A DNA stretch of 64,000 nt from a bacterium (GCA_028689495.1 JAQTWB010000006.1:1-64000), one strand, 5' to 3'; shown: positions 8,243 through 34,200, counted from the first letter of the stretch. Made by a program: numbers and translations. The notes: generated by a model not told the origin, from the letters alone.

Positions 8243-8246
8243 CTGG

Positions 8247-9210: not shown

Positions 9211-9231
9211 GCGCAGCGACGCCGCCTGCTT

Positions 9232-9417: not shown

Positions 9418-9431
9418 GGTGATCTCCTTGG

Positions 9432-13330: not shown

Positions 13331-13436
13331 AATGTCAATTGATATGAGCTGTAGGCCAGCATTATAGGTAGTTAATTGGTCAAATTCTGATCACCGAAAA
13401 AAGCAAGGTCAGTCAGGCTGGGACTAAGAGTTACTT

Positions 13437-16260: not shown

Positions 16261-16270
16261 CTGCGTGCTC

Positions 16271-19200
16271 CTAAACTGCTGCCCTGAGGCCAGCACGGCC
16301 TCCGGCTGAAAATTCATTCATGTATTCGGCTACCACCAACTGATTGATCGTTCGGGTGGCATCGGGTGTTAGCTTGATGTGCTGGCGGGTGTAAAACTCA
16401 CCAATCACGATGGGTTGCATCATCCGCTCAAAGTAGGTCTCGTTGGCTAACAACTGGGTATTTTGCAACACTTGCTCGTCTGCCAGTGCTTTGACGCTTA
16501 CCAGGGCATCAAAAAGGTGGCGCTCGGTCTGAGTGACATTGCCACGTTCCTGCAGGCGCTTGTGAATACGGGTGTATTTCGCATCACCTCGATATTTGGC
16601 ACGTAGCAGATTGTTCTGGCGATTCAGCTCTTTGACCTTGTCATGGATAGCGTTTAGCGCTCCGATGTTGGCGGTCATCTCCTCTTGACCGACTTCGTTC
16701 AGTTTTTTCTTCTTGAATAGCCGCTCAAGCTCCTCGCGCAGGGTGACGAACTTGGGGTCTTGTTGATCGAAGTTTTCGGCCAGTGCTTCACGGGTCTGGC
16801 GCAGGGTGTTTTTCAGCTTGTCGGCCAGTACCAGCTCTTCTTCCCTGATCTTGACGAACTTGAACAGCACGTCTTCCAGCGCGACATTGAGCAGATTGCT
16901 GGTGTCGGTGGCGGATTCGATGCTCTCCTTCAAGTTGAGCAAATCGAGATGGTTGCAGGTTTCGCGGTAGAGCTGGTTGAGTTTGTGGAAGTCGAGCTGC
17001 TGCAATAGCGTGTAATCGCCTTGTAGGCGGATCAAGTTGTAGAGGTTACGGGCATCCGCCAAGGCTTTCTTGAGTGCCAGTACGGCGGTACGGTCCTGCA
17101 TCTGGCTAATCTGACGGGAGAACTCCTCAGCGTTTTCAATATTGAAGCTGAACAGAATGTCCTTGATAGCCTCAATTTCTTGAGTGATTTCGTCAGCCGA
17201 CTTGAATAGGTTCGAGTAGTGCTCGATTTCATCGCCCAGTTCGGATTGCAGTTCGTCGAAGTAGTCCTTGTTGGTTTTGTCGAATTCCTTACGGATATCC
17301 GCAAAATCCACCACGTAGCCGTAGCGGAAGTCCTTGTAGGTGCGATTCACGCGTGTGAGGGCTTGCAACAGATTGTGCGCCTTGATGATGCGACCGAGGT
17401 ACAGCTTCTTCAGACGTTTGGCATCAAATCCGGTGAGTAACATGTTGTAGACAAACAAGAGGTCGATCTTGCCTGCCTTAAAGTCTTCCACCCATTGCTT
17501 TCGCTCGTCTTTGCTGCCTACGTCGTGCAGGATCAAGGCGGCGCATTTGACTCGGTTTTCCTGCTGAATTTTGGCCGTGTAGCTCTCAGGCTCTGCGACG
17601 TTGTTCAACGGCTGATCCGGGTCTTGCGATGCGTTCGCTGGTGACGGTTGAGCTGCATAGACAGCGTTGAAAATCTCGAACATCTGCCGAGCCTGTTCGG
17701 CGCTATCGCAAATGACCATGCCACCAATACTTGCATCACCCAAGGCACTACGGCTTTTCTCGAAATCTCGCACGATGTAATCGAGCATGGGTTCGACAAA
17801 CTTCGGGTGTGAATAGATCAGTTTTCGATCAACATCACCCTGCTGAAGCTTTACGGCTGCGAGCGCTTCTTGCAGCGAGAGTTTGTAGTTGGTGGCGATC
17901 TCTTCGCGGATGAGGCGAAGAGTGTAGCCATCGGCAATTGAGGCGTTGTAGTAGTACTTGTGGATGTAATCGCCAAACAACGAACGTGAGTTGTAGTCGT
18001 CGCCCAGAAGTGGCGTACCTGTGAGCCCGATCTTGATTGCGTTACGGTCTGATTGGCTCAGGTTGGCCAGGAAGCTACCCTGCGGGTTGTAGCTACGGTG
18101 CACCTCGTCAAGGAAATAGACGCGCTGAATGCTGAAGTCGTAATCCTCTGCACGAACCACATCGGGGTCGTCCTGGAATTTCTGAATATTGACGACCGTA
18201 ATTTCAGGTTTGCCACTGTGATTATGCAGTACCTGCGTAGTCTTGATGTCTCGGGCAAAAGCGTCACGGCTATCGATGGTATGTACAACCAGACCACGGC
18301 CTGAAAATTCGCGCTGCGCTTGGATGAGCAGATCGAGACGATCAACGATGAAATAGAACTTGGGGATGGTCCCTTGCCGCTGGAAGTAATCAGTCAGGAA
18401 GCGGGTGTTGTAATACGCCAGTGCTGTTTTTCCGCTCCCTTGCGTGTGCCAGATGATGCCCTTCTTAACACCCGCGTTGAGTTCCTTCTCGATGGCTTTG
18501 GTAGCGAACAGCTGGGGATAGCGCATGACATGCTTCTGCAGGCCATCAGTTTCATTTACGTAGGCCAGTGCAAAGCGCAGCAGGAACGAAAGGCGATCAG
18601 GGCTGAACAGCGAAGTGCAAATGCGATTGGTCGGTGTATCCGGCGCTTTGTTACTCAGAAACTCGGGACTGTGTTTGATGACGTTAAGGTTGTTGTCACG
18701 TAGCACTTCGTTTTCGATGGCATCATCTTCCTCCAACAAGAGTCGGTTGAGATCCAGCGTCTCCACCTCACGATCTTCACGGAAATAGTTGAAGACTGGC
18801 GAGTCATACGACGGGCTAGCGTAAAACGCACCCTCGATAGGTTGTGGTGAGCCATCGTCATACTCCATGTTGTTGGAGAAGACCATCAGCTGTGTGATGT
18901 TGATGAACCGGCGAAAACGTGAATTTCGACTGCGTGTGATGATGCGGTTGCGCTCGGCCAATACACCCTCGCGGTTGTTTGGCTTCTTGACTTCGATGAA
19001 CGCGAGCGGCATTCCGTTAATCAGCAGTGTGATATCGGGCCGAAACTCATCATCACCATTCTTGCAGGTCAATTCGGTGACAACATGAAAGCTGTTGTTC
19101 GAAAAGTCTGTGAAGTCGATCAGCTTGGTTCCTGACCGTTCAGTGAGCTTTTCGTAAAAAGCCTTGCCGAGGTCCTCGTTGTCGAGCGATAGCTTTACGT

Positions 19201-19393
19201 CAATGAAAAGACGTTCGATGTCGGTGCTATCTATCGAAGGGTTGATCCGTGCAATGGCGCTGTGAAACAGCTCAGGGAAGATATTGGTTTCCTCATCCCA
19301 CTTGGCATCCTTGAGGGAGAGGTAACTGTAGCCAAGCCTGATCAAATGCAGAATGCAGGGAATCTTGACCCTTGAGTCTTCGCTGAAAACCAT
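16271..19393 (-). CDS. hsdR: Type I restriction endonuclease subunit HsdR
   Basis: A 1040-aa restriction and DNA-translocation subunit. The N-terminal PD-(D/E)XK nuclease has F-R-P-D ... I-E-V-K-K (Asp120, Glu134, Lys136). The SF2 helicase motor has Walker A H-T-Q-G-S-G-K-T (316-323), Walker B D-E-V-H (429-432) and motif III G-L-T-G-T-P. A long helical C-terminal domain (about 700-1040) would bind HsdM. All motifs look intact. It is first in a leftward hsdR-hsdM-hsdS operon, and its TAG stop overlaps the ribosome binding site of hsdM. Confidence 0.94.
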   Translation of the reverse strand: MVFSEDSRVKIPCILHLIRLGYSYLSLKDAKWDEETNIFPELFHSAIARINPSIDSTDIERLFIDVKLSLDNEDLGKAFYEKLTERSGTKLIDFTDFSNNSFHVVTELTCKNGDDEFRPDITLLINGMPLAFIEVKKPNNREGVLAERNRIITRSRNSRFRRFINITQLMVFSNNMEYDDGSPQPIEGAFYASPSYDSPVFNYFREDREVETLDLNRLLLEEDDAIENEVLRDNNLNVIKHSPEFLSNKAPDTPTNRICTSLFSPDRLSFLLRFALAYVNETDGLQKHVMRYPQLFATKAIEKELNAGVKKGIIWHTQGSGKTALAYYNTRFLTDYFQRQGTIPKFYFIVDRLDLLIQAQREFSGRGLVVHTIDSRDAFARDIKTTQVLHNHSGKPEITVVNIQKFQDDPDVVRAEDYDFSIQRVYFLDEVHRSYNPQGSFLANLSQSDRNAIKIGLTGTPLLGDDYNSRSLFGDYIHKYYYNASIADGYTLRLIREEIATNYKLSLQEALAAVKLQQGDVDRKLIYSHPKFVEPMLDYIVRDFEKSRSALGDASIGGMVICDSAEQARQMFEIFNAVYAAQPSPANASQDPDQPLNNVAEPESYTAKIQQENRVKCAALILHDVGSKDERKQWVEDFKAGKIDLLFVYNMLLTGFDAKRLKKLYLGRIIKAHNLLQALTRVNRTYKDFRYGYVVDFADIRKEFDKTNKDYFDELQSELGDEIEHYSNLFKSADEITQEIEAIKDILFSFNIENAEEFSRQISQMQDRTAVLALKKALADARNLYNLIRLQGDYTLLQQLDFHKLNQLYRETCNHLDLLNLKESIESATDTSNLLNVALEDVLFKFVKIREEELVLADKLKNTLRQTREALAENFDQQDPKFVTLREELERLFKKKKLNEVGQEEMTANIGALNAIHDKVKELNRQNNLLRAKYRGDAKYTRIHKRLQERGNVTQTERHLFDALVSVKALADEQVLQNTQLLANETYFERMMQPIVIGEFYTRQHIKLTPDATRTINQLVVAEYMNEFSAGGRAGLRAAV

Positions 19394-20301: not shown

Positions 20302-20589
20302 TTATTTCTTGGCAGCCTTCTTCGCCTTCCGACGGCAGTTGTACCAGTAGGTGACAGCGCCTTTCTCGGTGAGCGTTGCGCCCTGGACGAAGGCTGCAAT
20401 AACGACATCCTTTTCCTCGTCCTTCAACGCCTCGAAGATGACCATTGCTGCGTCGGCCTTGCTCTTGCCGTCCTTGATGACGGCCTTGCCCTTGGCGATG
20501 GCCTCCTTGATCGCGGCTTTTCCCAGGTCGATCTTTTTCGGCTGAGCAGCGGCGGCGGTGGCTTCGGGGGCGGTTGCGGTCTTATCCAT
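20302..20589 (-). CDS. Small Ala/Lys-rich protein
   Basis: A 95-aa protein. A Thr/Ala/Pro-rich N-terminal segment precedes D-L-G-K-A-A-I-K-E-A-I-A-K-G-K, an acidic helix (F-E-A-L-K-D-E-E-K-D-V-V) and a Lys/Arg/Ala-rich end (R-R-K-A-K-K-A-A-K-K), all suggesting nucleic-acid contact. GAGG precedes the ATG. It overlaps the upstream gene's end by 8 bp. The family is not recognised. Confidence 0.6.
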   Translation of the reverse strand: MDKTATAPEATAAAAQPKKIDLGKAAIKEAIAKGKAVIKDGKSKADAAMVIFEALKDEEKDVVIAAFVQGATLTEKGAVTYWYNCRRKAKKAAKK

Positions 20590-20776
20590 GATATTTCCTC
20601 CAGATTTGCTGAGTGAGTTTGTCGATGACGGATTGCGGGGCGGTCTCGAATCCGGCGATGTCATCCAGCAAGCCGAGCAGGGCTTCAGTGAAGTCGTCGA
20701 ACTCCATGCCTTCGCCGAAATCCTCGATGAGGATTTCTACAAGTTGTTGCTTCTGATCGGTTGTTAGCGTGTACAT
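20582..20776 (-). CDS. Small acidic protein
   Basis: A 64-aa protein, M-Y-T-L-T-T-D-Q-K-Q-Q-L-V-E-I-L-I-E-D-F-G-E-G-M-E-F. It is acidic and helical, first in a leftward three-gene run of small proteins. The start at M-Y-T-L is chosen because the upstream residues lack protein-like character. The acid/base contrast with the next gene could mean the two products interact. Confidence 0.6.
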   Translation of the reverse strand: MYTLTTDQKQQLVEILIEDFGEGMEFDDFTEALLGLLDDIAGFETAPQSVIDKLTQQIWRKYHG

Positions 20777-21257: not shown

Positions 21258-21884
21258 TCATCTGTACTTCGGAAACCTGCCTTCTTCGAGATTCTTCATC
21301 AACTTGTTTGCCCACTGCAAATAGCGGCTAACAGTCGAACTCAAGATTGCTTTTTTATCTACAAGCTCGTCATGGGTATCGGTCTTTGTAGTGGCCTGGC
21401 TTGGATTCATCTTCAGTTTCTCGGCGATCTGCCACAGCCGCAGACTTGTAGTTTCTCTCAAGTCATAAATCTTCAACATCAATTCCAGGGTATCGAGTGT
21501 TGTCTTCCCTGAGATTTCACACCATTCAAAATCAGAGTACGTCTTGTGCTTTGGTCTGCCTACTTTTCCTGGATGGTGTTTCGTAAGCAGCTTCCTGAAC
21601 TGTTTGACGAGTTGATCCTTCGGGACATTCATGTCGATGAATACACACAGGTCTAGATCGTAAATTTCTGGTGGTGTGTACCAATGTCGGTATTCCTCTT
21701 CATTTTTGATGATCTGGAAACCGATTAATTTGTCCGCAAGGTCTTCCAAATATTCCTTGTTTTCGGCCATCCACTGATCGAACGGGACGTTTGTGCTGGT
21801 GAACAGGTGCGACAAATCCCCTGATTCACTGGCTTTCACCGTTCGTTTGGCCCACTCATACAGCAGTTGGTGCTTGTCCATCAT
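21258..21884 (-). CDS. Hypothetical 208-aa protein, possible DNA-binding regulator
   Basis: No family recognised. Visible features are a helical N-terminal half, a basic V-G-R-P-K-H-K patch near the middle, and L-R-L-W-Q-I-A-E-K-L-K-M-N-P-S-Q-A in the second half, which fits a helix-turn-helix. The inverted repeat TTGCAACACA/TGTGTTGCAA starts 12 bases before its ATG, so it may bind there and control itself and the divergent replication operon. The start is M-M-D-K or the next Met. Confidence 0.55.
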   Translation of the reverse strand: MMDKHQLLYEWAKRTVKASESGDLSHLFTSTNVPFDQWMAENKEYLEDLADKLIGFQIIKNEEEYRHWYTPPEIYDLDLCVFIDMNVPKDQLVKQFRKLLTKHHPGKVGRPKHKTYSDFEWCEISGKTTLDTLELMLKIYDLRETTSLRLWQIAEKLKMNPSQATTKTDTHDELVDKKAILSSTVSRYLQWANKLMKNLEEGRFPKYR

Positions 21885-22244: not shown

Positions 22245-23033
22245 ATGGCTAAACATAACCCAGGTGATCTGCTTACCTCTGACTGGAATCCTGTCGTTGG
22301 TTGCCAACGTTACTCCGCTGGTTGCCGCGACTGCTGGTGGCTCGACGGAATCATGCCTTGGCAAATTCGCCTCGGAAACCTGCCCGAGACAGTAACTGAA
22401 GGTGGGCCGACCGAACTTGACGCTCGATTTGATCCCGCGAAATTGCGTCCCAAGAAAGGCATTGTCGGCGTGGTTCAGCACGGCGATCTGTTCTGGGACA
22501 AGTTCTCTGACGCAACCATCCACCGTGTCCTCGACGTGGTCGATCAAGTTGCTCGGGAGCGTGAAGAGAAGAACTTCTGCCGCGCAAAACTCGGCAAACC
22601 AACCGACAACACCAAATACATCCTCTGGACGAAGCGAGGCGAACGTATGGCGAGCTTTCTGGATGTTCGCTATCCGCAGGGTGTTCCACCTTACATCGCG
22701 TGTGGCGTCTCGGTCGAAAACCAAGCGCTGGCCGATGAGCGCCTTCCTCACTTGCTTCGAGTTCAAGGTCATCGCTTCGTGATGATCGAGCCAATGCTCG
22801 GGCCGATTGACCTCACTGGCTATGAAGACGTGGATTGGGTGGTGCTTGGCTCGGAAACAGGTACGGAGCGTGCCCGCCCACTCAATCTCGATTGGGCTCG
22901 CCAAGTACGAGATTTCGCTGTGGCGAACAGCCTGCCGTTTTTCATCAAGCAGGTTGGACCAAGCCACAAAGCGCCAGTCCGCTGCCTCGATGGGCGGACC
23001 TGGGACGAGTTCCCAGTGGGATTCAACAAATAA
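22245..23033 (+). CDS. DUF5131 / phage Gp37-Gp68-like protein
   Basis: A 262-aa protein. The N terminus has D-W-N-P-V-V-G-C-Q-R-Y-S-A-G-C-R-D-C (Cys20, Cys27, Cys30), the hallmark of the Gp37/Gp68 (DUF5131) family, whose clustered cysteines recall radical-SAM-like metal centres. Later conserved-looking blocks are Y-I-L-W-T-K-R, A-C-G-V-S-V-E-N-Q and G-S-E-T-G. The biochemical role of the family is not established to my knowledge. ATG 22245 has GGAG upstream; the ATG at 22233 lies against the terminator. It is the first gene of the rightward operon. Confidence 0.8.
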   Translation: MAKHNPGDLLTSDWNPVVGCQRYSAGCRDCWWLDGIMPWQIRLGNLPETVTEGGPTELDARFDPAKLRPKKGIVGVVQHGDLFWDKFSDATIHRVLDVVDQVAREREEKNFCRAKLGKPTDNTKYILWTKRGERMASFLDVRYPQGVPPYIACGVSVENQALADERLPHLLRVQGHRFVMIEPMLGPIDLTGYEDVDWVVLGSETGTERARPLNLDWARQVRDFAVANSLPFFIKQVGPSHKAPVRCLDGRTWDEFPVGFNK

Positions 23034-23127: not shown

Positions 23128-23832
23128 ATGAAGACTTATATCCAAGACCAAGTTGTGTCGTTCTGCAAAACCCGCGAAGCCTTCGGTGGCCTTTCCAATA
23201 TGGCCGCTGGCTATTTGATCACGCTGTACGGAATTCGCTGCAAAACCAGTGAGCATCTTTATCAGGCCTTGAAATTTCCGAATCATCCGGAAATTCAAGC
23301 AGAAATCCTGGCAAAACCGAGCCCGATAGCGGCCAAGATGGTTGCAAAACGCTGCCGCCATCTTATTCGCCCAGATTGGGAAGAGATCAAGCTCCCGGTG
23401 ATGGCGTACTGCTTGCGTGCGAAGTTGCAGTGCAATTTTCAGCGATTCGGTAGCCTGCTGCTATCCACTGGCGATGCCGACATTGTTGAAATCTCGTCGA
23501 AGAACGACACCTTCTGGGGATGTATTCCTCAAGATGATTTGCTTGTGGGCCATAACCACCTCGGTATTCAACTGACCAATCTTTGTGATGAGTTGGTCAA
23601 CGACGAGGATGGCATTCATATCAGTCTTCGTGATGAGTTGGTTAATGACGAGGATGGCATTCATATAGCGATGCTTGCTCCTCCTGACGGGGTTGAGCTT
23701 CGATTGATGGGGCGTGTCCTTGGACCCCTCGAGTTCTATATCCCGGGCGTCAAGGAAATTGAGGATCCGCTCGCTGTAATCCGTGCCCGTCGCGTCAAAA
23801 AACAACTTAACTCAACCAATGGAGGTTTCTAA
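23128..23832 (+). CDS. NADAR-family protein (YbiA-like N-glycosidase)
   Basis: A 234-aa protein. F-C-K-T-R-E-A-F-G-G-L-S-N-M, then S-E-H-L-Y-Q-A-L-K-F, and further on F-W-G are typical NADAR blocks. NADAR enzymes cleave N-glycosidic bonds; YbiA-type members act on riboflavin intermediates, and others are reported to remove ADP-ribose from guanine bases. In a replication operon the second role, protection against DNA ADP-ribosylation, is the more attractive but unproven. The C-terminal third contains an in-frame tandem duplication (D-E-L-V-N-D-E-D-G-I-H-I twice) and an extension of about 60 residues outside the domain. Confidence 0.82.
   Translation: MKTYIQDQVVSFCKTREAFGGLSNMAAGYLITLYGIRCKTSEHLYQALKFPNHPEIQAEILAKPSPIAAKMVAKRCRHLIRPDWEEIKLPVMAYCLRAKLQCNFQRFGSLLLSTGDADIVEISSKNDTFWGCIPQDDLLVGHNHLGIQLTNLCDELVNDEDGIHISLRDELVNDEDGIHIAMLAPPDGVELRLMGRVLGPLEFYIPGVKEIEDPLAVIRARRVKKQLNSTNGGF
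23581..23670 (+). repeat. 45-bp tandem duplication inside the NADAR gene
   Basis: Two 45-bp units (23581-23625, 23626-23670), in frame, differing at a few mostly third-position bases, encode D-E-L-V-N-D-E-D-G-I-H-I twice. It lengthens a loop after the NADAR core. Confidence 0.85.
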
Positions 23833-23833
23833 C

Positions 23834-24067
23834 ATGGCAAAACTCACAATTCTTCCGAGCGGTGACGCTCTCGATATGCGCACGGTATCTGCAATCACAC
23901 TCTTTCCGGGTAAGGGGGTTTCGTGTTTTGACGACCAGCGTCGTTTTCTCACATTGATTCGTGTGGAGGACGCAGACAAGGCCAAACAGGTGCGCCAAAT
24001 TCTGATTCAACTCACCCAGCCTGGGATGGGGGCGCTTCAGCCCGATTGGAGTTTCCTCGAACAGTAA
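23834..24067 (+). CDS. Hypothetical 77-aa protein of the replication operon
   Basis: M-A-K-L-T-I-L-P-S-G-D-A-L-D-M-R-T-V ... F-D-D-Q-R-R-F-L-T-L-I-R-V. GGAGG precedes the ATG. The beta-strand-rich pattern is unfamiliar. It lies between the NADAR and polymerase genes on the same strand; an accessory role in replication is only suggested by position. Confidence 0.65.
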   Translation: MAKLTILPSGDALDMRTVSAITLFPGKGVSCFDDQRRFLTLIRVEDADKAKQVRQILIQLTQPGMGALQPDWSFLEQ

Positions 24068-24141: not shown

Positions 24142-26802
24142 ATGGAAAACATGATTGAAATTTCCGCCCCGGAAACCTGGTGTAGGTCGTCGAAAGGGGA
24201 ATATGTACCGGACTGTTACACCAACTGTCCAGAGCCTGAAATCGAAATGGATTTCGATGCCGACCTGAAGCGCTGGGAGCAGCAAACAGGCCATTACATT
24301 GCTGATTTCAGCGCTGCAGATCAGGACAAGCCTCGGAAAGGGCAGGGGCCGACGGTTTATATCGGCTTCGACTCGGAATTCGTTCCAGGCGACGAAGAGA
24401 GCAATAACGTGATCTTGAGCCTTCAGTTTTATTTGATAGGCGAGCGCGGTGTGATGGAGCGGGTTGTTTATCCGCGTGGGCCAGAGAAAAGCCAGCGTCC
24501 GCACTTCCGCAAAATTATTTTTGACTTGATCCACGAGGCAATGGATCGCGGGGTAGCCCTCGAATGGCCGAACCATGTCGTGTTGGTGGGCTTTTTCCTG
24601 CGCATCGACTTGCAGGCGTTTGGCGACCTCGTTTCGTTCAAGAAGGAACTGGAAAACGTTGGTGGCCGCGTGGCCTCGGTAAAAACCTCACTCATCTTGA
24701 CGCCTGAGGAAGATGACCTTGAATGCTTGCTGAATAACAAAACCTACATGGCGACGGATCGTGACGGGGTGTTCCGCATCCTGAAGGTTCGCTTTGTCGA
24801 TGCTGGCGGCCATGTGGCGATGGGTACTTCGCTAGCTCAAATCGGTGACTTGCTTGGCCTGCCGAAGCTTGACCTGCCGGAAGGCTATCTCAAGGAACGG
24901 ATGGATTTGCTGCTGGAGGGCGATAAGCAGGCCTTCGAGAGATACGGCCTCAGGGACTCGGAAATTGCTGTCCGGTTTTATCTTCGCCTGCTCAGCTTTG
25001 CAAAAGAGCACACCGGAAAGGCGTCGCTACCTGCGACCGCCAGCAGCCTTGCCGTCCGCATCTTCACCTCGAAGCTCGAAGAGAGCCAAGTCGATTTCAA
25101 TGCGGCATTTGGTGTGACGCAATGCGCCAGCACCTACTGGAACTCAGCAAGGGAGCAGGTAGTAAGCAAAAAAGAAAAGGCGCTTACGCCGATGCGAAAG
25201 GCCAACGAGTCGTTTGTTGCTGATTGCTACAGCGGCGGTCGTAACGAGTGCTACGCCTTTGGCCCGACGACCATCGGTATCTACAACGATTTCGATCTGG
25301 CAGGCGCATACACGACTGGGATGGTCGATCTGCGCCATATCGACTATGACAACTTCTGGTATTCGAAGGACACAACCGATTTTGTCGGGCATGTACTCGG
25401 GTTTGCCTATGTGCGCTTTGCTTTCCCGGATGGCACTCGCTTTCCGTCGATGCCGGTGCGGAATTCCCAAGGCGGACTGGTTTATCCGCTGACAGGATTT
25501 TCGTACTGCACAGCCCCAGAGATCGAGGTAGCGCTGAACCTCGGTTGTCAGATCGACATCTTGCATGGCGTGATTTTCCCGTGGTGTGAAGGCGATGGCC
25601 GGCTGTTCGAGCCTTTCGTGATGCATATCCGTTCGCTGCGGAAGTCATTCGAGAAAGGCAGCCTCGATGAGTTGTACGCCAAGCTCCTCGGGAACAGCTT
25701 GTACGGGAAGACAGCGCAAGGCCTGAAGGCAAAGACGGTCTTCGACTCTCAGGGGATGAAGAGTGTTGAACTACCTCATTCCATTTTGACGAATGCCGCC
25801 ATCGCAGCACACACGACGGGCTTCGTTCGCGCTGTTCTCAGCGAGCAAATTGCTGGAATCCCTCCGCATCGAAATGTGATCAGCGCCACGACGGATGGCT
25901 TCATCACGGATGCCGACGAGTCCGAGTTGGTGTTGGATGGGCCGATGGCAAAACGCTTTCAGGCCCTCTGCGAACGGGTTTCTCCCGGTAGCAAGATGCT
26001 GGAACGCAAGCATCGTGTGCGGCAGCTGATCGCGATGAAAACTCGTGGTCAGGTCACGGCCATTCCGTTCGAGAGCGAGCCATTCATTCTCGCAAAAGCG
26101 GGGGTGTCACCGCAGGTCGAACATGCGCTGCACAACGAATTCATGGTCGATTTGTTCATGAGTCGTAGCCCCGGCGACATGACGGTCACTCGCCCATTCA
26201 CGCCGTTTCGGGAGCAGTGGGTCAAAGACGCTGACGTGGTTCGCCTGACTCGGGAATCGAGGCTGAACCTTGAGTTCGACTTCAAGCGCCGCTTGGTTGA
26301 GCCGCAGCAGGTTGCTGTCGCTGATGGCGAGCACCTCTCGATGAGCAGTGTGCCTTGGTATGACCTCGCGGAATGCGAGCGTGCAAGGGCCATTTTCGAC
26401 GGCTGGCGTGACAAGCACTGCCTGAAGACCTTTGGGGATTTACATGACTGGGAGGACCACTACCAGTTTGCCTTGGTACGGGACCGCATCGGCAAAGGTA
26501 ATGGCCGCAGTTTCGGGATACGTCCAACAAGCGGCGGTATCACGGATGTGTTCCGCCGCATGTTCTTGCGTGCCTACACGCAAGGCCTCTGCGGATTGAC
26601 CAAAACGATGACCTATCCCGAGTTGGCTGACTGGCTCACCGAGCGTGGCTATCCGACCAAGGTCAATGACGTGAAAAACGCTGTACGGGCTGAGTTCATT
26701 GAGCACGCAGTGCCATCGACGCCACGTATAGAAGAACTGAAAACGGTGCTTGTGGAAGGGTTCCCGAGCATCGAGATCGAAAAATTTATTTCAACCAACT
26801 AA
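24142..26802 (+). CDS. Family B DNA polymerase (protein-primed/piPolB-like group)
   Basis: An 886-aa polymerase. The exonuclease domain has ExoI F-D-S-E-F (Asp77, Glu79), a divergent ExoII (G-F-F-L-R-I-D, Asp156, usual Asn missing) and ExoIII Y-G-L-R-D (Tyr268, Asp272). The polymerase domain has motif A D-F-D-L-A-G-A-Y (383-390, in place of DxxSLYP), motif B K-L-L-G-N-S-L-Y-G (514-522), motif C A-T-T-D-G (Asp585; Thr in place of the first Asp of DTD) and K-T-R-G (633-636) where KxY is expected. The ~130 residues between A and B leave room for a TPR2-like insertion. K-T-R-G and T-T-D recall primer-independent PolBs, from memory. The start has GGAG upstream. With the SF3 helicase just downstream it probably replicates the element. 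Confidence 0.85.
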   Translation: MENMIEISAPETWCRSSKGEYVPDCYTNCPEPEIEMDFDADLKRWEQQTGHYIADFSAADQDKPRKGQGPTVYIGFDSEFVPGDEESNNVILSLQFYLIGERGVMERVVYPRGPEKSQRPHFRKIIFDLIHEAMDRGVALEWPNHVVLVGFFLRIDLQAFGDLVSFKKELENVGGRVASVKTSLILTPEEDDLECLLNNKTYMATDRDGVFRILKVRFVDAGGHVAMGTSLAQIGDLLGLPKLDLPEGYLKERMDLLLEGDKQAFERYGLRDSEIAVRFYLRLLSFAKEHTGKASLPATASSLAVRIFTSKLEESQVDFNAAFGVTQCASTYWNSAREQVVSKKEKALTPMRKANESFVADCYSGGRNECYAFGPTTIGIYNDFDLAGAYTTGMVDLRHIDYDNFWYSKDTTDFVGHVLGFAYVRFAFPDGTRFPSMPVRNSQGGLVYPLTGFSYCTAPEIEVALNLGCQIDILHGVIFPWCEGDGRLFEPFVMHIRSLRKSFEKGSLDELYAKLLGNSLYGKTAQGLKAKTVFDSQGMKSVELPHSILTNAAIAAHTTGFVRAVLSEQIAGIPPHRNVISATTDGFITDADESELVLDGPMAKRFQALCERVSPGSKMLERKHRVRQLIAMKTRGQVTAIPFESEPFILAKAGVSPQVEHALHNEFMVDLFMSRSPGDMTVTRPFTPFREQWVKDADVVRLTRESRLNLEFDFKRRLVEPQQVAVADGEHLSMSSVPWYDLAECERARAIFDGWRDKHCLKTFGDLHDWEDHYQFALVRDRIGKGNGRSFGIRPTSGGITDVFRRMFLRAYTQGLCGLTKTMTYPELADWLTERGYPTKVNDVKNAVRAEFIEHAVPSTPRIEELKTVLVEGFPSIEIEKFISTN

Positions 26803-26813
26803 AGGAGTAAATC

Positions 26814-28202
26814 ATGGAACAAAATCAAAACACCACCACCTCGGTGGCTAACTGGCCTATCGCTGAAGCAGCTACGGATGACGTTAAGGAATTCATCAAG
26901 CAGTTTTATCCGCAGGGTCTCGTATATCTGCACAACTCGTTTCTTGCCTACGCAGATGGATACTGGAGGGCTCAAGATGATCGCTCCGATGTTCAGCGCT
27001 CCATCGCGAAATTTTTTGGTAGTAACGCTACGGCTGCCAAGGTTCGCGAGTTGTTCGTCATGTTGAAGTTGTCCTGTGTGGTCAAGGACAGCATTTTCAA
27101 GCCGAACCACAACTTCATTTGTTTCAAGAACGGTGCGCTCGATATGACGACCTATAGCCTTGTGCCGCACGATCCGACGATGTGCCTGCGCTCTGGCCGG
27201 AACGTGGATTGGGATGAGAGCGCCAAGGCACCGACGTTCGAGAAGTTTTTGGCTGACGTGTTTCGTGACGACCATGATCGCGACCAGAAAATCCAATTCG
27301 TGCGTGAGTGGATGGGGCTTTGCCTGATCCCTGATACCAGCTTCGAGAAATTTGTGGTTTGCGTTGGGGATGGTGGCAACGGGAAGTCCGTCCTGCTAAA
27401 GCTTATGTCCGAGTTAGTCGGTCATGAAAACGTCTATAGCGCACCTGTTCAACGCCTCGGAAATCGCCGCGCCTTGGCTGAGCTTGATGGAAAGTTGCTG
27501 CTACTGAGTTCTGAGATTAACGAGAATACTGTGATGGATGACGGCATTCTCAAGCAGATTGTCAGCGGTGACATGGTGGAGGCGGAGCGCAAGTACGAGC
27601 ATCCTTTTTCCTTCACGCCTTCTGCACGCATCATGCTGGCGACTAACCATTTGCCGAAATTGCGCGATGTCACCCACGCTTTTTTCCGTCGCTTGGTGAT
27701 GATCCGTTTCAACCGCAATTTCACTGCCGACGAGATGGATATGCATCTCCCGGCAAAATTGTCTTCCGAGCTGTCTGGAATCTTTGCGGTGGCTGTTCGT
27801 GGTTTGCGCTCGCTGCGTGAGCGTCAGCGTTTTGATGTTCCCGCATCGTCTCTTGCAGCCGCTGAGCAATACCGTGAGGATTCGGATTACATCAAGATGT
27901 TTGCCGACGAGGCGGTCGAGCGATGCAATGAAAAGGGCATGCGCCCCGCTGCTTTGTACAAGCTGTATTCGAGCTGGGCGAGTGCTTATGGCATCCTGAT
28001 CGAAAACAACATTGTCCTCGGTAAGCGCTTGCGTCAGCTTGGTTTCGAGAAGACTCGCTCGAATGGCAAGGACTACTGGCGTGTAAAGGTGACCCCTGCC
28101 GGTGAGGAAATTTCCACTAAGCGTTCTGTACGCCCCGTTGATCTGCCTGCCGTGAAACCTGATGAGAGAGCGGCAAACGATGCAATCCCTCTTGCTGCTT
28201 AA
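26814..28202 (+). CDS. D5-type SF3 helicase (primase-helicase C-terminal part)
   Basis: A 462-aa protein. D5_N-like region (about 20-170), then an SF3 AAA+ helicase with Walker A G-D-G-G-N-G-K-S (185-192), Walker B L-L-L-S-S-E (Glu234), sensor A-T-N-H (Asn278) and Arg finger F-F-R-R (292-293), then a winged-helix-like tail. The N-terminal primase domain of phage P4 alpha-type proteins is absent: the protein starts where D5_N starts. It is 11 bases past the polymerase stop with its own GGAG. It should unwind the element for the PolB. No primase is seen elsewhere in the element. Confidence 0.9.
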   Translation: MEQNQNTTTSVANWPIAEAATDDVKEFIKQFYPQGLVYLHNSFLAYADGYWRAQDDRSDVQRSIAKFFGSNATAAKVRELFVMLKLSCVVKDSIFKPNHNFICFKNGALDMTTYSLVPHDPTMCLRSGRNVDWDESAKAPTFEKFLADVFRDDHDRDQKIQFVREWMGLCLIPDTSFEKFVVCVGDGGNGKSVLLKLMSELVGHENVYSAPVQRLGNRRALAELDGKLLLLSSEINENTVMDDGILKQIVSGDMVEAERKYEHPFSFTPSARIMLATNHLPKLRDVTHAFFRRLVMIRFNRNFTADEMDMHLPAKLSSELSGIFAVAVRGLRSLRERQRFDVPASSLAAAEQYREDSDYIKMFADEAVERCNEKGMRPAALYKLYSSWASAYGILIENNIVLGKRLRQLGFEKTRSNGKDYWRVKVTPAGEEISTKRSVRPVDLPAVKPDERAANDAIPLAA

Positions 28203-28235: not shown

Positions 28236-28688
28236 ATGAGCAACAATTTAAAAGTACACAATTTTGGTGCTGTTATTCGGGTTGTACATGGGGGCAAGTT
28301 TGGGGGCATGGCTTGCGTTGGCGGGAAAGCCGTTAAGTATCTGGATGCTGACATGGTCATGCGGTGTAGCCAAGCCCAAAACCCCGGGAAGCCGATTACG
28401 AAAGACGGTTTGATTCAGGCTTATGCACTCCAGCTTATTATCAAATTCATGGAGCGCTACCAGCCTGAGGCTGACCTTGAAAAACTATCAGGTTGGTCGC
28501 GGGGAGATGCCTATGCTGTTTCTAAACTGCGTGGCACTCCATTCTGGATGATGGTGGCAGACACTGACAGTGACAAAATTGAAATTAATACGCTCACGAA
28601 GGCACAGTACATCGATTATTGCCGAAAGTTTGATCGTGAGATGCACAAGGAAAAGCCCTTTGAGGGAGTGCTGACACTTGCTGCATAG
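28236..28688 (+). CDS. Hypothetical 150-aa protein, last gene of the replication operon
   Basis: M-S-N-N-L-K-V-H-N-F-G-A-V-I-R-V-V-H-G-G-K-F-G, then a central helical part and a conserved-looking W-S-R-G-D-A-Y-A-V-S-K-L-R. It has its own ribosome binding site (GAGG) and lies directly before a strong terminator. I do not recognise it. A single-strand-binding or replication accessory protein would fit the position, but nothing in the motifs shows it. Confidence 0.65.
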   Translation: MSNNLKVHNFGAVIRVVHGGKFGGMACVGGKAVKYLDADMVMRCSQAQNPGKPITKDGLIQAYALQLIIKFMERYQPEADLEKLSGWSRGDAYAVSKLRGTPFWMMVADTDSDKIEINTLTKAQYIDYCRKFDREMHKEKPFEGVLTLAA

Positions 28689-28752: not shown

Positions 28753-30042
28753 TTACTCTCGAGCCAATACTACGGGCAAGCCTTCCCAGTCTGTTGTGTA
28801 GCCGGGAGAGAGGTTGCCTCTACGCATCTGCCATGCTTTTACAACGCCTTCGGCGGCGAGGCGCACCGTCCCTCGACCATACTTCCCGTTGATCCCATCA
28901 AGCACGCCCATGAGCGCCTGGGAGCGAGCATCGCCTGCGTCCCCTGAAGCAAAGAGCGAGAACTGTTGATTGGCCGCTGGTGCGATATTCATAAGCGTAA
29001 TTCCTGCCTTGTGATAGCCGTAACCCGGCTGGTAAATGCGCCGCAGAACTTTCAATGCCCACTTGGTCAGCACGCGGGTATCGGAGGAGGCTTCTGGCAA
29101 TGGCACTGTGAATGAACGCTGATACTGCGGTACTTCAGGCTTGAAAATGTTCGTCCGAATGTAGACCTGCACGGCTCCAGCCAGTGATTCCTGAGCCCGC
29201 AGTTTTTCTGCCGCTTTGCCGACGTAGTTGGCTACTGCTTCCTCCAGATCAGCCAAGTCGTAGATCAGTTGGCCAAACGAGCGACTGGACATGATTTGCT
29301 GTTTTTCAGGCACAACCTCTTGCAGGTCAAGGCACGACACACCGCGTAGCTCGCGAACCGTTCGCTCAAGCACCACGGAGAACTGGGAGCGAATTGTCTC
29401 GGCATCTGAATCGCGCAGTTGTTGCACGGTGTGGATGCCCATTGCTTCAAGCCTTGCCGAGATTTTGCGACCGACCCCCCAGACTTCGCCCACGCCAATG
29501 CTGGCGAACAGTTTGGTTAGCTCGTGTTCGTCCATCGTGGTGAAGTCGCAAACACCATCAGCGCCCGCCAAGCTTTTCTTGGCGGCGTGATTCGCGAGCT
29601 TAGCGAGCGTCTTCGTGGTGCCAACGCCAACGCATACCGCCAGCCCCAGCCAGTCTGCCACGCGCTGTCGAATTTCAGCACCGTAGGCTTGATAACCGAC
29701 TCGCTCGAATCCTGAAAAATCCAGAAAGCTCTCGTCGATGCTATAGACCTCTATGCTGGGGGAAAAATCGCTCAGTACTTGCACCACGCGATTGCTCAGG
29801 TCTGCGTATAGCGCGTAATTGGAACTGAAGGCGACAATCCCGTAGCGTTTTGCTTCCTCCCGCAGCTTGAACCACGGCACCCCCATGGGGATGCCAAGCT
29901 TTTTTACCTCGGCTGATCGGGCTACGACACAGCCGTCGTTGTTTGAAAGGACAACAACAGGCCGGTCTTTCAGTTTGGGGTCAAAAAGCTTCTCGCACGA
30001 GGCGTAGAAATTGTTGCAGTCGACTAGCGCGAATACAGGCAC
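28753..30042 (-). CDS. umuC: UmuC-type Y-family DNA polymerase V catalytic subunit
   Basis: A 429-aa translesion polymerase. The N-terminal catalytic part has F-A-L-V-D-C-N-N-F-Y-A-S-C-E (first metal-binding Asp) and Y-S-I-D-E-S-F-L-D (Asp-Glu pair); a helix-hairpin-helix region follows (G-V-G-R-K-I-S-A-R-L), then the little finger domain. Length fits the family (about 420). The GTG at 30042 is chosen because it begins directly at V-P-V-F-A-L-V-D and lies one base after the umuD stop; the longer frame upstream is not family-like. It copies past lesions together with UmuD'. Plasmid relatives are mucB/rumB/impB. Confidence 0.93.
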   Translation of the reverse strand: MPVFALVDCNNFYASCEKLFDPKLKDRPVVVLSNNDGCVVARSAEVKKLGIPMGVPWFKLREEAKRYGIVAFSSNYALYADLSNRVVQVLSDFSPSIEVYSIDESFLDFSGFERVGYQAYGAEIRQRVADWLGLAVCVGVGTTKTLAKLANHAAKKSLAGADGVCDFTTMDEHELTKLFASIGVGEVWGVGRKISARLEAMGIHTVQQLRDSDAETIRSQFSVVLERTVRELRGVSCLDLQEVVPEKQQIMSSRSFGQLIYDLADLEEAVANYVGKAAEKLRAQESLAGAVQVYIRTNIFKPEVPQYQRSFTVPLPEASSDTRVLTKWALKVLRRIYQPGYGYHKAGITLMNIAPAANQQFSLFASGDAGDARSQALMGVLDGINGKYGRGTVRLAAEGVVKAWQMRRGNLSPGYTTDWEGLPVVLARE

Positions 30043-30043
30043 G

Positions 30044-30505
30044 TCATGCCCCGAACCGCTTAAATTTGCCAACAACGACACCCCATACGACGAGTTCCTG
30101 CTCCTCGCCGATGTCCAGTGCAGGATATTTCGGGTTTTCTGCGACAAGGGCGACACGGCCTGAACGTCGATACAAGCGCTTCACCAGTCGCTGACCATCC
30201 ACGAAGGCGATCACAATATGGCCGTGCTTAGGTCGAACACTTTTATCGACAACAAGGATGTCGCCATCGAATATTTCGGCGCCTTCCATTGAATCTCCTT
30301 GAACGGAGAAAAAGAAAGTTGAGACGGGATTGCGAACGAGGTATTCGTTGATATCCAGCCGCTTGTCTTCGTAGTCTGCCGCCGGACTGGGAAAGCCTGC
30401 CGAAACCCGTACTTCGTCGAAGGGTAGGGCAAGCCTTGGTGCTCCCGGTAAAGGGATGAAGACCCCCGGAGCTAACGCAACTTCAGGCATGGGCTGCAAG
30501 GTCAT
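30044..30505 (-). CDS. umuD: UmuD-type LexA-family self-cleaving protein
   Basis: A 153-aa protein. Cleavage site S-A-G-F with Ala36-Gly37, then an S24 peptidase domain with G-D-S-M (Ser72 nucleophile) and R-L-V-K-R (Lys109 general base). RecA filaments trigger self-cleavage to UmuD', which joins UmuC. It overlaps the start of the zinc-ribbon gene's end by 23 bp and ends one base before umuC. Confidence 0.93.
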   Translation of the reverse strand: MTLQPMPEVALAPGVFIPLPGAPRLALPFDEVRVSAGFPSPAADYEDKRLDINEYLVRNPVSTFFFSVQGDSMEGAEIFDGDILVVDKSVRPKHGHIVIAFVDGQRLVKRLYRRSGRVALVAENPKYPALDIGEEQELVVWGVVVGKFKRFGA

Positions 30506-30674
30506 CCGCGTAGTGCTCTTCGATTGAATGGCCTTCTGGACCCTCCTGTTGCTCAGAAACCAGCACGGCTGAGCATTCGGGACACACGAGGTTCAATTGC
30601 CCGTTGATGGTGACTTGCTCAAGCTCTGCGCTTGATAACGGGGTATGGCAGTGTGGGCATACGATTCTTATCAT
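30483..30674 (-). CDS. Small zinc-ribbon protein, first gene of the umuDC operon
   Basis: A 63-aa protein with C-P-H-C and C-P-E-C knuckles separated by about 22 residues, then an acidic tail. GGAG precedes the ATG. It is directly downstream of the LexA box and overlaps umuD, so it is SOS-controlled and co-translated. Its role is unknown; a regulatory or DNA-contact partner of UmuDC is possible. Confidence 0.7.
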   Translation of the reverse strand: MIRIVCPHCHTPLSSAELEQVTINGQLNLVCPECSAVLVSEQQEGPEGHSIEEHYADDLAAHA

Positions 30675-30691
30675 CTTGCTCTCCTTTTATA

Positions 30692-30707
30692 CTGTAAGTT
30701 TATACAG
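30692..30707. promoter_or_regulatory. LexA box controlling umuDC
   Basis: CTGTAAGTTTATACAG fits the CTGT-N8-ACAG consensus exactly. Read leftward it contains TATAAA, a likely -10, about 20-30 bases before the zinc-ribbon gene. It may also affect the divergent SRAP gene about 110 bases away. Confidence 0.85.
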
Positions 30708-30819
30708 TTGTTCGTGGAGTGCAATACTGTATGCCGATGACAACTATCTCGTATTGAAGGGCTGAGCCCATTTGTCGGGGTGAGAACCACCATGCGTTTT
30801 TGTTTGATAACCTTTGGGC

Positions 30820-31467
30820 ATGTGCTCTCACTATGACCCTCAAACAGACCCGGCTCGACTCCACGCCAATTTTGGCGTTGGTGACTTGCCACTGGGACTC
30901 AAACCCAGCCTTTGGCCTGGCTACCACGGGCCATTTGTTCGGAAACATGAATTCGCAGATGTTGGCGATGATGCAGTGCCATTCCGGGAATTACTCGTGG
31001 GGTCATTTGGCTTGATTCCCCATTGGTCAAAGGACGCCACCATTGCCAGACGTACTTACAACGCGCGTTCTGAAACAGTTCACGAGAAGCCGAGCTACCG
31101 TGATGCTTGGAGGCTCGGGCGTCATTGCATCATCCCGGCTGAAGCAATCTACGAACCTGATTGGCGGACAGGAAAAGCGGTGCCAACACGCATCTCCCGT
31201 GCCGATGGAAAACCTATGGGCATTGCCGGGCTCTGGGCAGCCTGGAAGAACCCCTCGGGCGAGCTGACCCATAGCTACACGATGCTGACGATCAATGCAG
31301 ATGACCATCCGTTCATGCGCCGGTATCACAAGCCTGATGATGAAAAGCGGATGATAGTCATCCTCGACGAGGATGCTTACGATGCCTGGCTTCAAGCATC
31401 GGCAACGGGAAGTCGTGATTTCCTCAGGCAGTTCCCCCCAGACAACCTCGTTGCTGAGGGGCCGTAG
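30820..31467 (+). CDS. SRAP domain protein (YedK/HMCES-like)
   Basis: A 215-aa protein. M-C-S-H gives Cys2, the residue that forms the DNA-protein crosslink at abasic sites after Met removal. Other catalytic positions are present: N-A-R-S-E-T (Asn81), I-P-A-E-A (Glu108) and D-D-H-P-F-M (His163). The ATG at 30820 is required to place the Cys second; the upstream TTG would not. It shields abasic sites in single-stranded DNA, which fits its place divergent from an SOS polymerase operon. Confidence 0.92.
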   Translation: MCSHYDPQTDPARLHANFGVGDLPLGLKPSLWPGYHGPFVRKHEFADVGDDAVPFRELLVGSFGLIPHWSKDATIARRTYNARSETVHEKPSYRDAWRLGRHCIIPAEAIYEPDWRTGKAVPTRISRADGKPMGIAGLWAAWKNPSGELTHSYTMLTINADDHPFMRRYHKPDDEKRMIVILDEDAYDAWLQASATGSRDFLRQFPPDNLVAEGP

Positions 31468-31557: not shown

Positions 31558-32178
31558 CTAAAGCGTAATCGCATACCAATCGACTCTTCCAATCGCACAC
31601 GCATTACCAATAGCTCGCCCGGTCGTCAGGCTTCCATCATCCATCCCGCCATCAACCTCCACGACTAAATCGCAGGGAAGGTTGAAAAATACAATAGCAT
31701 TCTGGGAGTTTGGGGCATTTACGAAGCCAGCTACAAGCCCAACTGCTGTGGCTCTTGAAACTACCTGAACCGGCCCGAAGCTTGTCGTTATGCGGCGCTG
31801 AGCTTCACTACTGTTGATCTTGCCTATAAATCCAGCTTGAAAAAGTTGCAAAGGCAGTTCTGCCACTTCCGAGCCCGCCTGGGCAGCGCCGGTGGCATCG
31901 ATAGTGCCATCAATAATGCCATCCCCATTTGTTCCGACAGTTGTACCTGACGCAATGCCCTGTATTTCGTTTGCCGAATAAGGCCAGTCGCCTGGAAGGT
32001 ACTTATAGCGTTGTTTGAAGGATATGGTTGCCGTACGAATATCGCTAACAATCGCCATTACATTCTTGGCGTTAGCACCGCCAATCAGTGATTGCCCTCG
32101 AATTACGGCCACTATGAGAAGGGCAATAATGGTGACTACTATCGCCAACTCGGCGAGAGTAAATCCGCGTTGTTTCAT
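31558..32178 (-). CDS. Type IV prepilin-like protein
   Basis: A 206-aa protein with a class III leader: M-K-Q-R-G then F-T-L-A-E-L, with Glu at +5, and a hydrophobic helix A-I-V-V-T-I-I-A-L-L-I-V-A-V-I. It would be cut by the host prepilin peptidase after Gly5 and inserted in the inner membrane. The globular part is Gly/Ala/Thr-rich with two Cys near the C terminus (L-P-C-D and N-A-C-A). The N-terminal helix with K-Y-L-P-G-D-W-P is common in prepilins of mobile elements and minor pilins. Its ATG overlaps the stop of the upstream gene (ATGA). Confidence 0.88.
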   Translation of the reverse strand: MKQRGFTLAELAIVVTIIALLIVAVIRGQSLIGGANAKNVMAIVSDIRTATISFKQRYKYLPGDWPYSANEIQGIASGTTVGTNGDGIIDGTIDATGAAQAGSEVAELPLQLFQAGFIGKINSSEAQRRITTSFGPVQVVSRATAVGLVAGFVNAPNSQNAIVFFNLPCDLVVEVDGGMDDGSLTTGRAIGNACAIGRVDWYAITL

Positions 32179-32369
32179 TGTTTATCGCGTTGGATCGCGT
32201 GGGCAAATAGCGTAATACACCAAGTTGCCACCAGTGCACTTGCTGCTGCTAATCCAACCACGACGAACGGACTGTGCTGTGAAATCAAACTCGGGGCAAC
32301 AACGATCCAAATGAGCAGCAAGAAAACAGCTGGTGATAGATATATCGTGTGTCTGATTCGGGTCTTCAT
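32175..32369 (-). CDS. Small membrane protein of the prepilin operon
   Basis: A 64-aa protein with two predicted transmembrane helices (Y-L-S-P-A-V-F-L-L-L-I-W-I-V-V and F-V-V-V-G-L-A-A-A-S-A-L-V-A). It overlaps the next prepilin gene by 4 bp and starts within 10 bp of the stop of the first prepilin gene. M-K-T-R-I-R is taken as start; the longer frame runs into the upstream gene. Possibly an assembly or anchoring partner. Confidence 0.65.
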   Translation of the reverse strand: MKTRIRHTIYLSPAVFLLLIWIVVAPSLISQHSPFVVVGLAAASALVATWCITLFAHAIQRDKQ

Positions 32370-32376
32370 TGATTCC

Positions 32377-33360
32377 TCACAAGCAAGTGGCGTTGGCAAG
32401 CCCAACTGGAATTGCTATTGCCGAACATGCTGGCCCTGGTAGGACACATTGAGGTACTCCAGAAGAGCACGCCGGGGTCCCTGATGCAGTACAACTAACC
32501 ACCGTCCCATTGCAAAACCCACCACCAGCAGGAGCGCAACTAAAAGTACCTCCACCTGTACACGTAGGAGCTGTCAGGCAATAGGCGTAGCAAGATTTCA
32601 ACGACCCCTCATTCAGCAATGGTTGCAGCAGGTCTTGTGGAGTCAAATAAGTTAAAAGGTCATCATACGGCCCGTTGAATGCTCCAGCTGATTCGTTGAC
32701 TGGGCGCGAGATGAAAGCAGTCGTGGTGTCTGTACCATTCGTCGCCTCGCCCGCCCCCGCGTCGGAGGTAGGTAGCCTAGCACCTACCTTTGTTGTCTTT
32801 GCTCCGAAACCATTTTTGCCATGAGAAAGTAGAACGATTACGGCTCTTGGGTTTGTAGTGACCAGAGCCGTACCGGCTGCGTCCAGTTCTTGAATGGTGA
32901 GGGCGGCCGTTGGTGTTCGAAGCTCGTTGATGTCAAATGGGATTCCGGCTGTTCTAGAGGTCCAATTTTTTGAGCCGCCAGTTCCATTTGCAACCCGATA
33001 CGTGAAATAGTTCCCCCACCCATCGACAACGCTATCGCGTGGGATACCAAGCGTGATCCAGGGAACAACACCATAGCCATCAGCAGCGGTAGCGTGACAG
33101 GGAGAAACTTCAACACCCGATGCAACTGCTGCAGAGCCTGAGTTATCTGGGCATGGCAATCTGCCGTTGGTGCGAAGAAATCCAACTAAAGCTGTCTTTA
33201 TCAGTTCTTGTTTAGCTTTTGTTTCGCTATAGAAGGCGTTCTCAAGGGTGGTCGTAACCATCTTGAGGCCCATTGTCATAACAATACCGATCAAAACCAG
33301 CACCACTGCTAATTCGACTAGGCTGAACCCTTGAAGCTTCTTGGCGGGCACGATTTTCAT
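32377..33360 (-). CDS. Prepilin-like protein with a cysteine-rich C-terminal tail
   Basis: A 327-aa protein. Leader K-K-L-Q-G cut before F-S-L-V-E-L (Glu at +5), then hydrophobic helix A-V-V-L-V-L-I-G-I-V-M-T-M. The middle contains R-L-P-C-P-D and G-V-V-P-W-I-T-L-G, wording I associate with pseudopilin-like proteins. The last ~70 residues hold ten Cys in a Gly/Thr/Pro-rich setting, probably disulfide-linked and exposed. It is longer than common pilins (about 150-200), consistent with a tip or adhesin-type minor pilin. No ATPase, secretin, platform or prepilin peptidase gene is present, so it must use host machinery. Confidence 0.85.
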   Translation of the reverse strand: MKIVPAKKLQGFSLVELAVVLVLIGIVMTMGLKMVTTTLENAFYSETKAKQELIKTALVGFLRTNGRLPCPDNSGSAAVASGVEVSPCHATAADGYGVVPWITLGIPRDSVVDGWGNYFTYRVANGTGGSKNWTSRTAGIPFDINELRTPTAALTIQELDAAGTALVTTNPRAVIVLLSHGKNGFGAKTTKVGARLPTSDAGAGEATNGTDTTTAFISRPVNESAGAFNGPYDDLLTYLTPQDLLQPLLNEGSLKSCYAYCLTAPTCTGGGTFSCAPAGGGFCNGTVVSCTASGTPACSSGVPQCVLPGPACSAIAIPVGLANATCL

Positions 33361-33498: not shown

Positions 33499-34200
33499 TC
33501 ATGGCAGTGCGGATGCTGGGTGCAGTTGGAACGAAACCTCGTATTCAAATAGGCTTACGTTTGGGACGACGCACGCGGCATAGCGCAAAGTGTCGCTGAC
33601 CTGTTTTGCTACGATGATCCCATGGGTCGCCTTACCGGCACCTATCGTCTGACTTACCCAGCCCATGTAGCGCGTCAGCTGACCCATTACGTGGTCGGGC
33701 GTGCGCCCGCGCTTTAGTTCAAACACATGGAATTCACCGTTGTCATCGATAGCCAGGAGGTCGATCGGGCCCACGGAAGTCCGATACTCAACGCCATCCC
33801 TACCGGTTGGGTCCACATAAACGCGCAACCGACGACCATTGACCGGAATGGCACTGAGGTTGGAGCAAAGGAAGTCTCTTAGCTGGTACTCAAGTTCAAA
33901 GCTCGGTGCTTGGTCTTCTGACTCGTCTCCGTTGTCGGGTTCCTCGAGTATGTCGTTCAGGACCGTACCCGCTTGAACTATCGTATCCGGTGGAAGCAAC
34001 CGAAATTCGGTATCCGTTTCCTGAATGGTCCAACCACGCCGCTTGAGTGCGCCACGCAACTGTTGTGATGTGCTTCCCGTAGGATTCATGTCCTCTGGTA
34101 GATGTCCAGGATGCTGACGCAGCCATTCCTTCATCGCATGCATTTCTAGGCTGCCATCACCTTTCGGTAGCAGTACCAGATGGGTTTTGCGTGTGCTCAT
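33499..34200 (-). CDS. NucS/DUF91-like PD-(D/E)XK nuclease
   Basis: A 233-aa protein. The N-terminal ~95 residues are a helical region of unclear type. The C-terminal part has L-E-Y-Q-L-R-D-F-L (Glu104), V-G-P-I-D-L-L-A-I (Asp147) and F-H-V-F-E-L-K-R-G-R (Glu161, Lys163), followed by Q-L-T-R-Y-M-G-W-V, the wording of DUF91/EndoMS-NucS relatives. NucS proteins cut mismatched or branched DNA; many short relatives in mobile elements are unstudied. It is the last gene before attP. Confidence 0.75.
   Translation of the reverse strand: MSTRKTHLVLLPKGDGSLEMHAMKEWLRQHPGHLPEDMNPTGSTSQQLRGALKRRGWTIQETDTEFRLLPPDTIVQAGTVLNDILEEPDNGDESEDQAPSFELEYQLRDFLCSNLSAIPVNGRRLRVYVDPTGRDGVEYRTSVGPIDLLAIDDNGEFHVFELKRGRTPDHVMGQLTRYMGWVSQTIGAGKATHGIIVAKQVSDTLRYAACVVPNVSLFEYEVSFQLHPASALP

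Follow-up and report, generated by a model that had tools for sequence, protein, structure and literature searches.

Analysis of a 64,000-nt stretch of bacterial DNA (GCA_028689495.1, JAQTWB010000006.1:1-64000; the window, by which this whole stretch is meant) revealed an integrative element, inserted in the competence gene comEC, in which a family B DNA polymerase (PolB) gene is directly followed by that of a superfamily 3 (SF3) helicase. This operon probably encodes the core replication proteins of an integrative element of the pipolin type; once excised, or as a tandem, the element would be copied by the helicase and a self-priming polymerase of the primer-independent PolB (piPolB) kind. 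The element occurs as a tandem, hence the pair is present twice:

24142-26802, + strand: PolB, a piPolB by its sequence (ATG at 24142 to stop at 26802; 886 amino acids), from Pfam, motif alignment, tree and the ratio of nonsynonymous to synonymous substitutions (dN/dS)
26814-28202, + strand: D5_N-SF3 helicase without a primase domain (462 amino acids), from Pfam, motifs, TIGR01613 and dN/dS
58527-61187, + strand: second copy of PolB (100% identity in a protein search of its own assembly)
61199-62587, + strand: second copy of the SF3 helicase (100% identical, by the exact 34,385-bp periodicity)

A preliminary description had reported a family B polymerase with exonuclease motifs, T-T-D at motif C and K-T-R-G in place of K-x-Y, in one operon with a D5_N-SF3 helicase; all of this was borne out, and the identical second pair had been missed. 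PolB matches DNA_pol_B_2 (Pfam, E=6e-14), and the motif alignment recovered intact exonuclease motifs (Exo I GFDSE with D77 and E79, Exo II D156, Exo III Y268/D272), motif A (D383-F-D385) and motif B (K514...NSLYGK). Motif C reads T583-T584-D585-G586 (TTDG, 25888-25899) and so lacks the first aspartate (TTD versus DTD), whilst K633-T634-R635-G636 (KTRG, 26038-26049) stands where K-x-Y is usual. TDG was found in all members of the piPolB clade described below and DTDS in the remaining sequences, and T-R in nearly all clade members, as against a K-x-Y-type motif in protein-primed enzymes; on the strength of this alignment alone, we take K-T-R(-G) in place of K-x-Y to be a mark of piPolBs. The first aspartate of motif C is absent from piPolBs (PMC7544198), but also from the PolB of the mavirus virophage (PMC11071308), hence TTD is not by itself diagnostic and the assignment of the polymerase rests on the tree. 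Sequence searches of the PDB with PolB and a PolB profile gave no usable match, and an AlphaFold model made with five sequences, meant to show the overall fold and any TPR2-type insertion, was unusable (mean predicted local distance difference test score of 30). A 48-nt repeat (79%) is shared between the start of polB (24176-24223) and a small open reading frame (ORF) near the left end (3748-3795), with further copies upstream in relatives.

The phylogeny of PolB was inferred by maximum likelihood from 30 rows and 760 columns, the rows comprising Rhodocyclaceae relatives, six piPolB-type plasmid polymerases, a phage contig, four protein-primed and two nucleic-acid-primed PolBs. The window polymerase fell inside a 24-row clade (support 100/99) together with the pipolin-plasmid polymerases, including those of Staphylococcus epidermidis pSE-12228-03 and Lactobacillus fermentum pLME300, plasmids that have been named as pipolins (PMC9710591). 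This clade was separate from both the protein-primed group (97/88) and the T4/Pol II group (99/97), thus the comparison with piPolB and protein-primed groups that the preliminary description had called for did not place PolB among enzymes that require a separate primer. On this basis the window polymerase is a piPolB, for which de novo synthesis is predicted from family membership. Protein priming by an unrecognised terminal protein is hardly credible: distant likeness to protein-primed PolBs does exist (25% to that of the archaeal virus LCBv1, for example), but forcing the PolBs of the comEC elements to group with protein-primed PolBs was 54 log units worse and was rejected by the approximately unbiased (AU) test (p-AU 2.75e-5). 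Moreover, the element has no terminal inverted repeats apart from the arms of its attachment (att) sites, it integrates at att sites of the circular type, and no terminal-protein family was found in its scanned ORFs. Virophage-like and protein-primed assignments of PolB were both dropped following the tree and the AU test.

The helicase gene starts 11 nt past the polB stop, on the same strand, and its product matches only D5_N, DUF5906 and VapE-like domains in Pfam. It also matches TIGR01613 of NCBIfam (‘phage/plasmid primase, P4 family’), the matched part being the helicase; the misnaming of primase-less helicases as primases has been pointed out previously (PMC10061031). Walker A (GDGGNGKS, 27366-27389), motif C (ATNHLP, 27639-27656) and the arginine finger (FFRR) are intact. 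At 462 amino acids the protein is short, four of the five homologues compared having 770-836. Relative to the three close relatives described below, dN/dS was 0.10-0.11 for the helicase and 0.13-0.15 for PolB, indicative of purifying selection, hence both are selected proteins and not chance reading frames. SF3 helicases of the D5 kind are commonly ring-shaped hexamers that load at an origin.

Neither a primase nor a terminal protein could be recognised, in agreement with the preliminary description. Pfam scans were conducted on nearly all ORFs of about 60 or more amino acids picked by a greedy caller within one element unit, and PHROGs and NCBIfam were applied to the element core. The former yielded no AEP, DnaG, zinc-finger/TOPRIM primase or terminal-protein match in the scanned ORFs, and the latter none in the core either; within the helicase itself, Pfam and NCBIfam found D5_N and SF3 matches only, with no AEP or other primase domain. 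A 63-amino acid ORF at 30483-30674, beside a UmuD-like gene, resembles a zinc ribbon, and a divergent primase may be hidden in an ORF without a family, such as the 207-amino acid ORF at 21258-21881. Alternatively, PolB may need primers in vivo, with the SF3 helicase opening the circle and host DnaG priming it, as in an ordinary helicase-driven replicon that carries its own polymerase. A stand-alone, primase-less D5 helicase does exist on an Alicyclobacillus plasmid, and de novo synthesis by the window PolB is a prediction only; as the polymerase groups with piPolBs and has motifs of the piPolB type, we nevertheless judge such an arrangement unlikely.

The contig from which the window derives ends at 69,022 and is a perfect direct tandem that repeats every 34,385 bp starting at base 126, whilst the two halves of comEC occupy bases 1-125 and the final 125 bases. 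Findings in one copy therefore recur in the other wherever both lie inside the window (126-64000). The features that define the element are:

1-125, + strand: 5' portion of comEC, which the element splits (PF03772 match at 48-131; relatives read ...RTGTTHLMSI before the insertion)
126-34510: one complete element unit (34,385 bp)
126-127: attL crossover dinucleotide AG, from comparison of attL, junction and attR
196-1983, + strand: large serine recombinase (Resolvase, Recombinase, Zn_ribbon_recom) adjoining comEC; second copy at 34581-36368
9432-10502, - strand: Xer-like tyrosine recombinase, also paired with a piPolB at loci L058 and L081
34511-34512: attP-type junction of the tandem copies, with an AG core and the inverted arms TCTATTAAAAC and GTTTTAATAGA nearby

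Comparison of attL (ATGAG|CATCTG), the junction (ATCAG|CATCTG) and attR (ATCAG|TATTTCC) placed the crossover at the dinucleotide AG, large serine recombinases usually having a core of two bases. The serine recombinase has weak similarity to CcrA/CcrB (NCBIfam) and 69% DNA identity to its counterparts in two related elements (G016 and G017). The sequence thus supports insertion of the element in comEC by this recombinase and, putatively, its excision as a circle. Direct att repeats for the inner tyrosine recombinase were not found, so that a pipolin nested inside a serine-recombinase element could not be demonstrated; neither was a tRNA found at the element.

On either side, 125 nt of comEC flank are unique; once the two core bases are added, the distance from each contig end to the far side of the crossover is exactly 127 nt. 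Bases 1-125 did not occur elsewhere in the bin. Such ends would fit a k=127 de Bruijn graph in which reads of the empty site, the occupied ends and the copy-to-copy junction were all present. The tandem junction and the contig ends, not the reads themselves, therefore suggest that occupied, empty and circular or tandem forms coexisted, and the source may have held a genuine tandem, an inserted copy together with a circle, or both. The tandem could instead be a double pass of the assembler round a loop, the element being a static single-copy insertion, and the base-identical copies and the 127-nt ends on both sides are what such a graph predicts. The loop, however, needs junction reads from copy to copy, which one static insertion could not supply, and a break at the crossover points to reads from the empty site as well; a static insertion is thus unlikely.

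The bin that contains the contig (G000:C195) is probably not the true host. The samples of its class and of its phylum were the same 46 genomes, none of which except the bin itself has a PolB relative. In the family of Dechloromonas hankyongensis, 15 of the 399 genomes sampled have a relative, and across its class none of 368 other sampled genomes does, D. hankyongensis itself apart. Since the PolB relatives and the comEC flanks (73-77% identical to Rhodocyclales comEC) both point to the Rhodocyclales, and contamination of the bin is 5%, the contig has probably been misplaced and would really be of Rhodocyclales origin.

Three close relatives of the element were identified, in Rhodocyclaceae UBA2250, Azonexaceae W9 and the isolate D. 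hankyongensis XY25, with PolBs 83-89% identical to that of the window, and all three share the polB-SF3 operon. The W9 and XY25 elements could be seen whole, at one and the same comEC codon (...THLMSI|SGLHVT) and with the same serine recombinase. The UBA2250 contig starts inside its element, thus only the right end was visible, running into comEC with a slightly different junction sequence. An uninterrupted comEC site (two mismatches or fewer) was found in 127 of the 399 family genomes, the two carriers in that sample not being among them. The core common to all four elements includes the tyrosine recombinase, two small ORFs, the DUF5131 protein, a 77-amino acid ORF, PolB and the SF3 helicase, whilst restriction, kinase, repair and pilin-like genes vary among them.

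Several observations weigh against the reading of the pair as a self-priming replication core. Identity between the window PolB and the plasmid piPolBs is low, at about 25%, and the biochemically studied piPolB of Escherichia coli was not among the rows of the tree. Origin-like iterons or origin repeats were searched for in the element, and none was seen. A profile built from the window helicase and its phage and plasmid homologues matched, among the piPolB loci scanned, the four comEC elements only; neither the stretches around polB at 12 further piPolB loci of Rhodocyclaceae nor six plasmids with a piPolB gave a match, hence a piPolB has no general need of an SF3 helicase. The role of piPolB has also been called unclear, with damage tolerance in the host proposed as well (PMC9710591). 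The pair could instead be an accessory set of genes for defence or for tolerance of DNA damage, with the element persisting by integration alone; its cargo is indeed rich in repair and defence genes (a UmuDC-like pair, SRAP, type I restriction-modification and a kinase/PP2C pair). No PADLOC model matches PolB or the helicase, however, polB-SF3 is fixed whilst the flanking cargo turns over, and the tandem or circle junction points to more than passive integration, so that we hold an accessory function to be quite unlikely and retain the pair as the probable replication core.

With regard to wider distribution, the SF3 profile gave no match in ten IMG/VR piPolB loci. Searches of IMG/VR with PolB or the helicase singly retrieved no relative, and the ten loci, mostly distant, came from alignment-based scans. 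Tyrosine recombinases were frequent at other piPolB loci, and those at L058 and L081 were very like the inner one of the window (E ~1e-111). L081 (IMGVR_UViG_3300048586_000622, 6649-10553), viral by its listing, is pipolin-like in appearance, with a piPolB relative beside this recombinase. In a 34-kb tailed-phage contig (L024/L080, IMGVR_UViG_3300006674_000090), a piPolB-type polymerase with TTDG (1-2652) adjoins terminase- and portal-like genes, and a piPolB may thus be used by a phage. The simplest history would be one in which a Rhodocyclaceae pipolin lineage acquired an SF3 helicase as well as a serine recombinase specific to comEC, in no assigned order.

The remaining genes around the operon are:

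20302-20664, - strand: conserved small core ORF without a family, in all four elements and at L058
20928-21194, + strand: conserved small ORF, beside other Rhodocyclaceae piPolBs too
22245-23033, + strand: DUF5131 (Gp37-like) protein (Pfam, E=3e-40), in all four elements
23128-23832, + strand: NADAR domain protein (Pfam), absent from the G017 element
23834-24067, + strand: 77-amino acid ORF directly upstream of polB, kept in the four elements, no Pfam family
28236-28688, + strand: 150-amino acid ORF downstream of the helicase, in the window element only (a gap in the alignment of relatives), no family

The NADAR gene carries an in-frame 45-bp tandem duplication at 23577-23666. Cargo to the left (11275-19393) comprises a PP2C-like phosphatase, a Ser/Thr kinase (PADLOC PD-T4-6 type) and a complete type I restriction-modification system. 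To the right, UmuC/UmuD-like and SRAP genes (28753-31467) have 87% DNA identity with the Azonexaceae element G016; they are followed by two proteins with N-terminal methylation motifs like those of type IV pilins (31558-33360), an unusual cargo given the disruption of comEC, and, at the right end (33499-34200), by a NucS C-terminal-like nuclease matching the PADLOC candidate family PDC-S02.

The piPolB gene is the only universal pipolin gene (PMC9710591), and by this loose definition the element is a pipolin, albeit one without the usual tyrosine-recombinase ends and with an SCCmec-like logic. With the E. coli integrative elements and the S. epidermidis and L. fermentum plasmids it shares the supported polymerase clade, TTDG and K-T-R, a tyrosine recombinase and defence cargo. 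It differs in that its ends are large serine recombinase sites in comEC, in contrast to the tyrosine-recombinase att repeats, often at a tRNA, that are common though not universal in pipolins, and in having an SF3 helicase in operon with polB. SCC-type elements combine a PolA-SSB primase with a large serine recombinase and a D5_N helicase (PMC10061031). SCCmec-type cassettes (CcPol-MP or PolA-SSB; PMC10061031) thus resemble the comEC element in the serine recombinase, the D5_N/COG3378-type helicase and a self-priming-type polymerase that replaces a primase; their polymerase, however, is of family A and not B, their site is rlmH, and the comEC element has a Gram-negative host group and no recognised SSB or MP partner. 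The P4/D5 primase-helicases of phages and plasmids (TIGR01613) have a homologous helicase half (D5_N and SF3), yet the window protein is shorter and lacks the primase domain. HelPrimPolB and the GP55 replicase of phage 1706 (PMC7544198, PMC12205980) similarly unite PolB and helicase in one replication unit, but as a single polypeptide including a PrimPol/AEP domain, whereas here there are two genes and no primase. Protein-primed PolB replicons differ in their polymerase clade, in the DTD of motif C, and in possessing the terminal protein and terminal inverted repeats.

On the favoured reading, each catalytic step of which we infer, the serine recombinase would join attL and attR to form a circle; the stand-alone D5-type SF3 helicase would then load onto the excised or tandem form and unwind it, and the piPolB, going by its family, would start strands and extend them with proofreading, requiring neither primase nor terminal protein. 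Replication followed by reintegration into an already occupied comEC would produce tandems such as that of the contig. This suggests that the element brings its own minimal copying machine. The preliminary description had proposed a possible distinct type of replicon; the data support this as a variant only, polB-SF3 being fixed in the four related comEC elements and missing at the 12 other Rhodocyclaceae loci and on the six plasmids. It is possible, though doubtful, that the element represents a replicon class of its own, in which the circle released by the serine recombinase is copied by a replisome of two proteins, the self-priming PolB and a dedicated SF3 helicase that stands alone. Such a class would be an independently arisen, family B counterpart of the SCCmec replication module, and would turn off natural transformation through its disruption of comEC.

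ComEC carries incoming DNA into the cell, hence insertion in comEC should end natural transformation. Competence genes besides comEC, comM for one, are likewise known to receive insertions of mobile genetic elements (PMC11472951). No description of a piPolB paired with an SF3 helicase was found in the literature searched, the scope of which left out most subscription papers, and a survey of E. coli gave no sign of excised pipolin forms (PMC7385651). A piPolB with an operon-mate helicase and a circle or tandem junction in the assembly makes replication of the excised element by piPolB directly testable, in part in the sequenced isolate D. hankyongensis XY25. More broadly, the comparison suggests that polymerases able to prime themselves, of family A in some serine-recombinase elements and of family B in others, were acquired independently, in each case next to a helicase of the same type.

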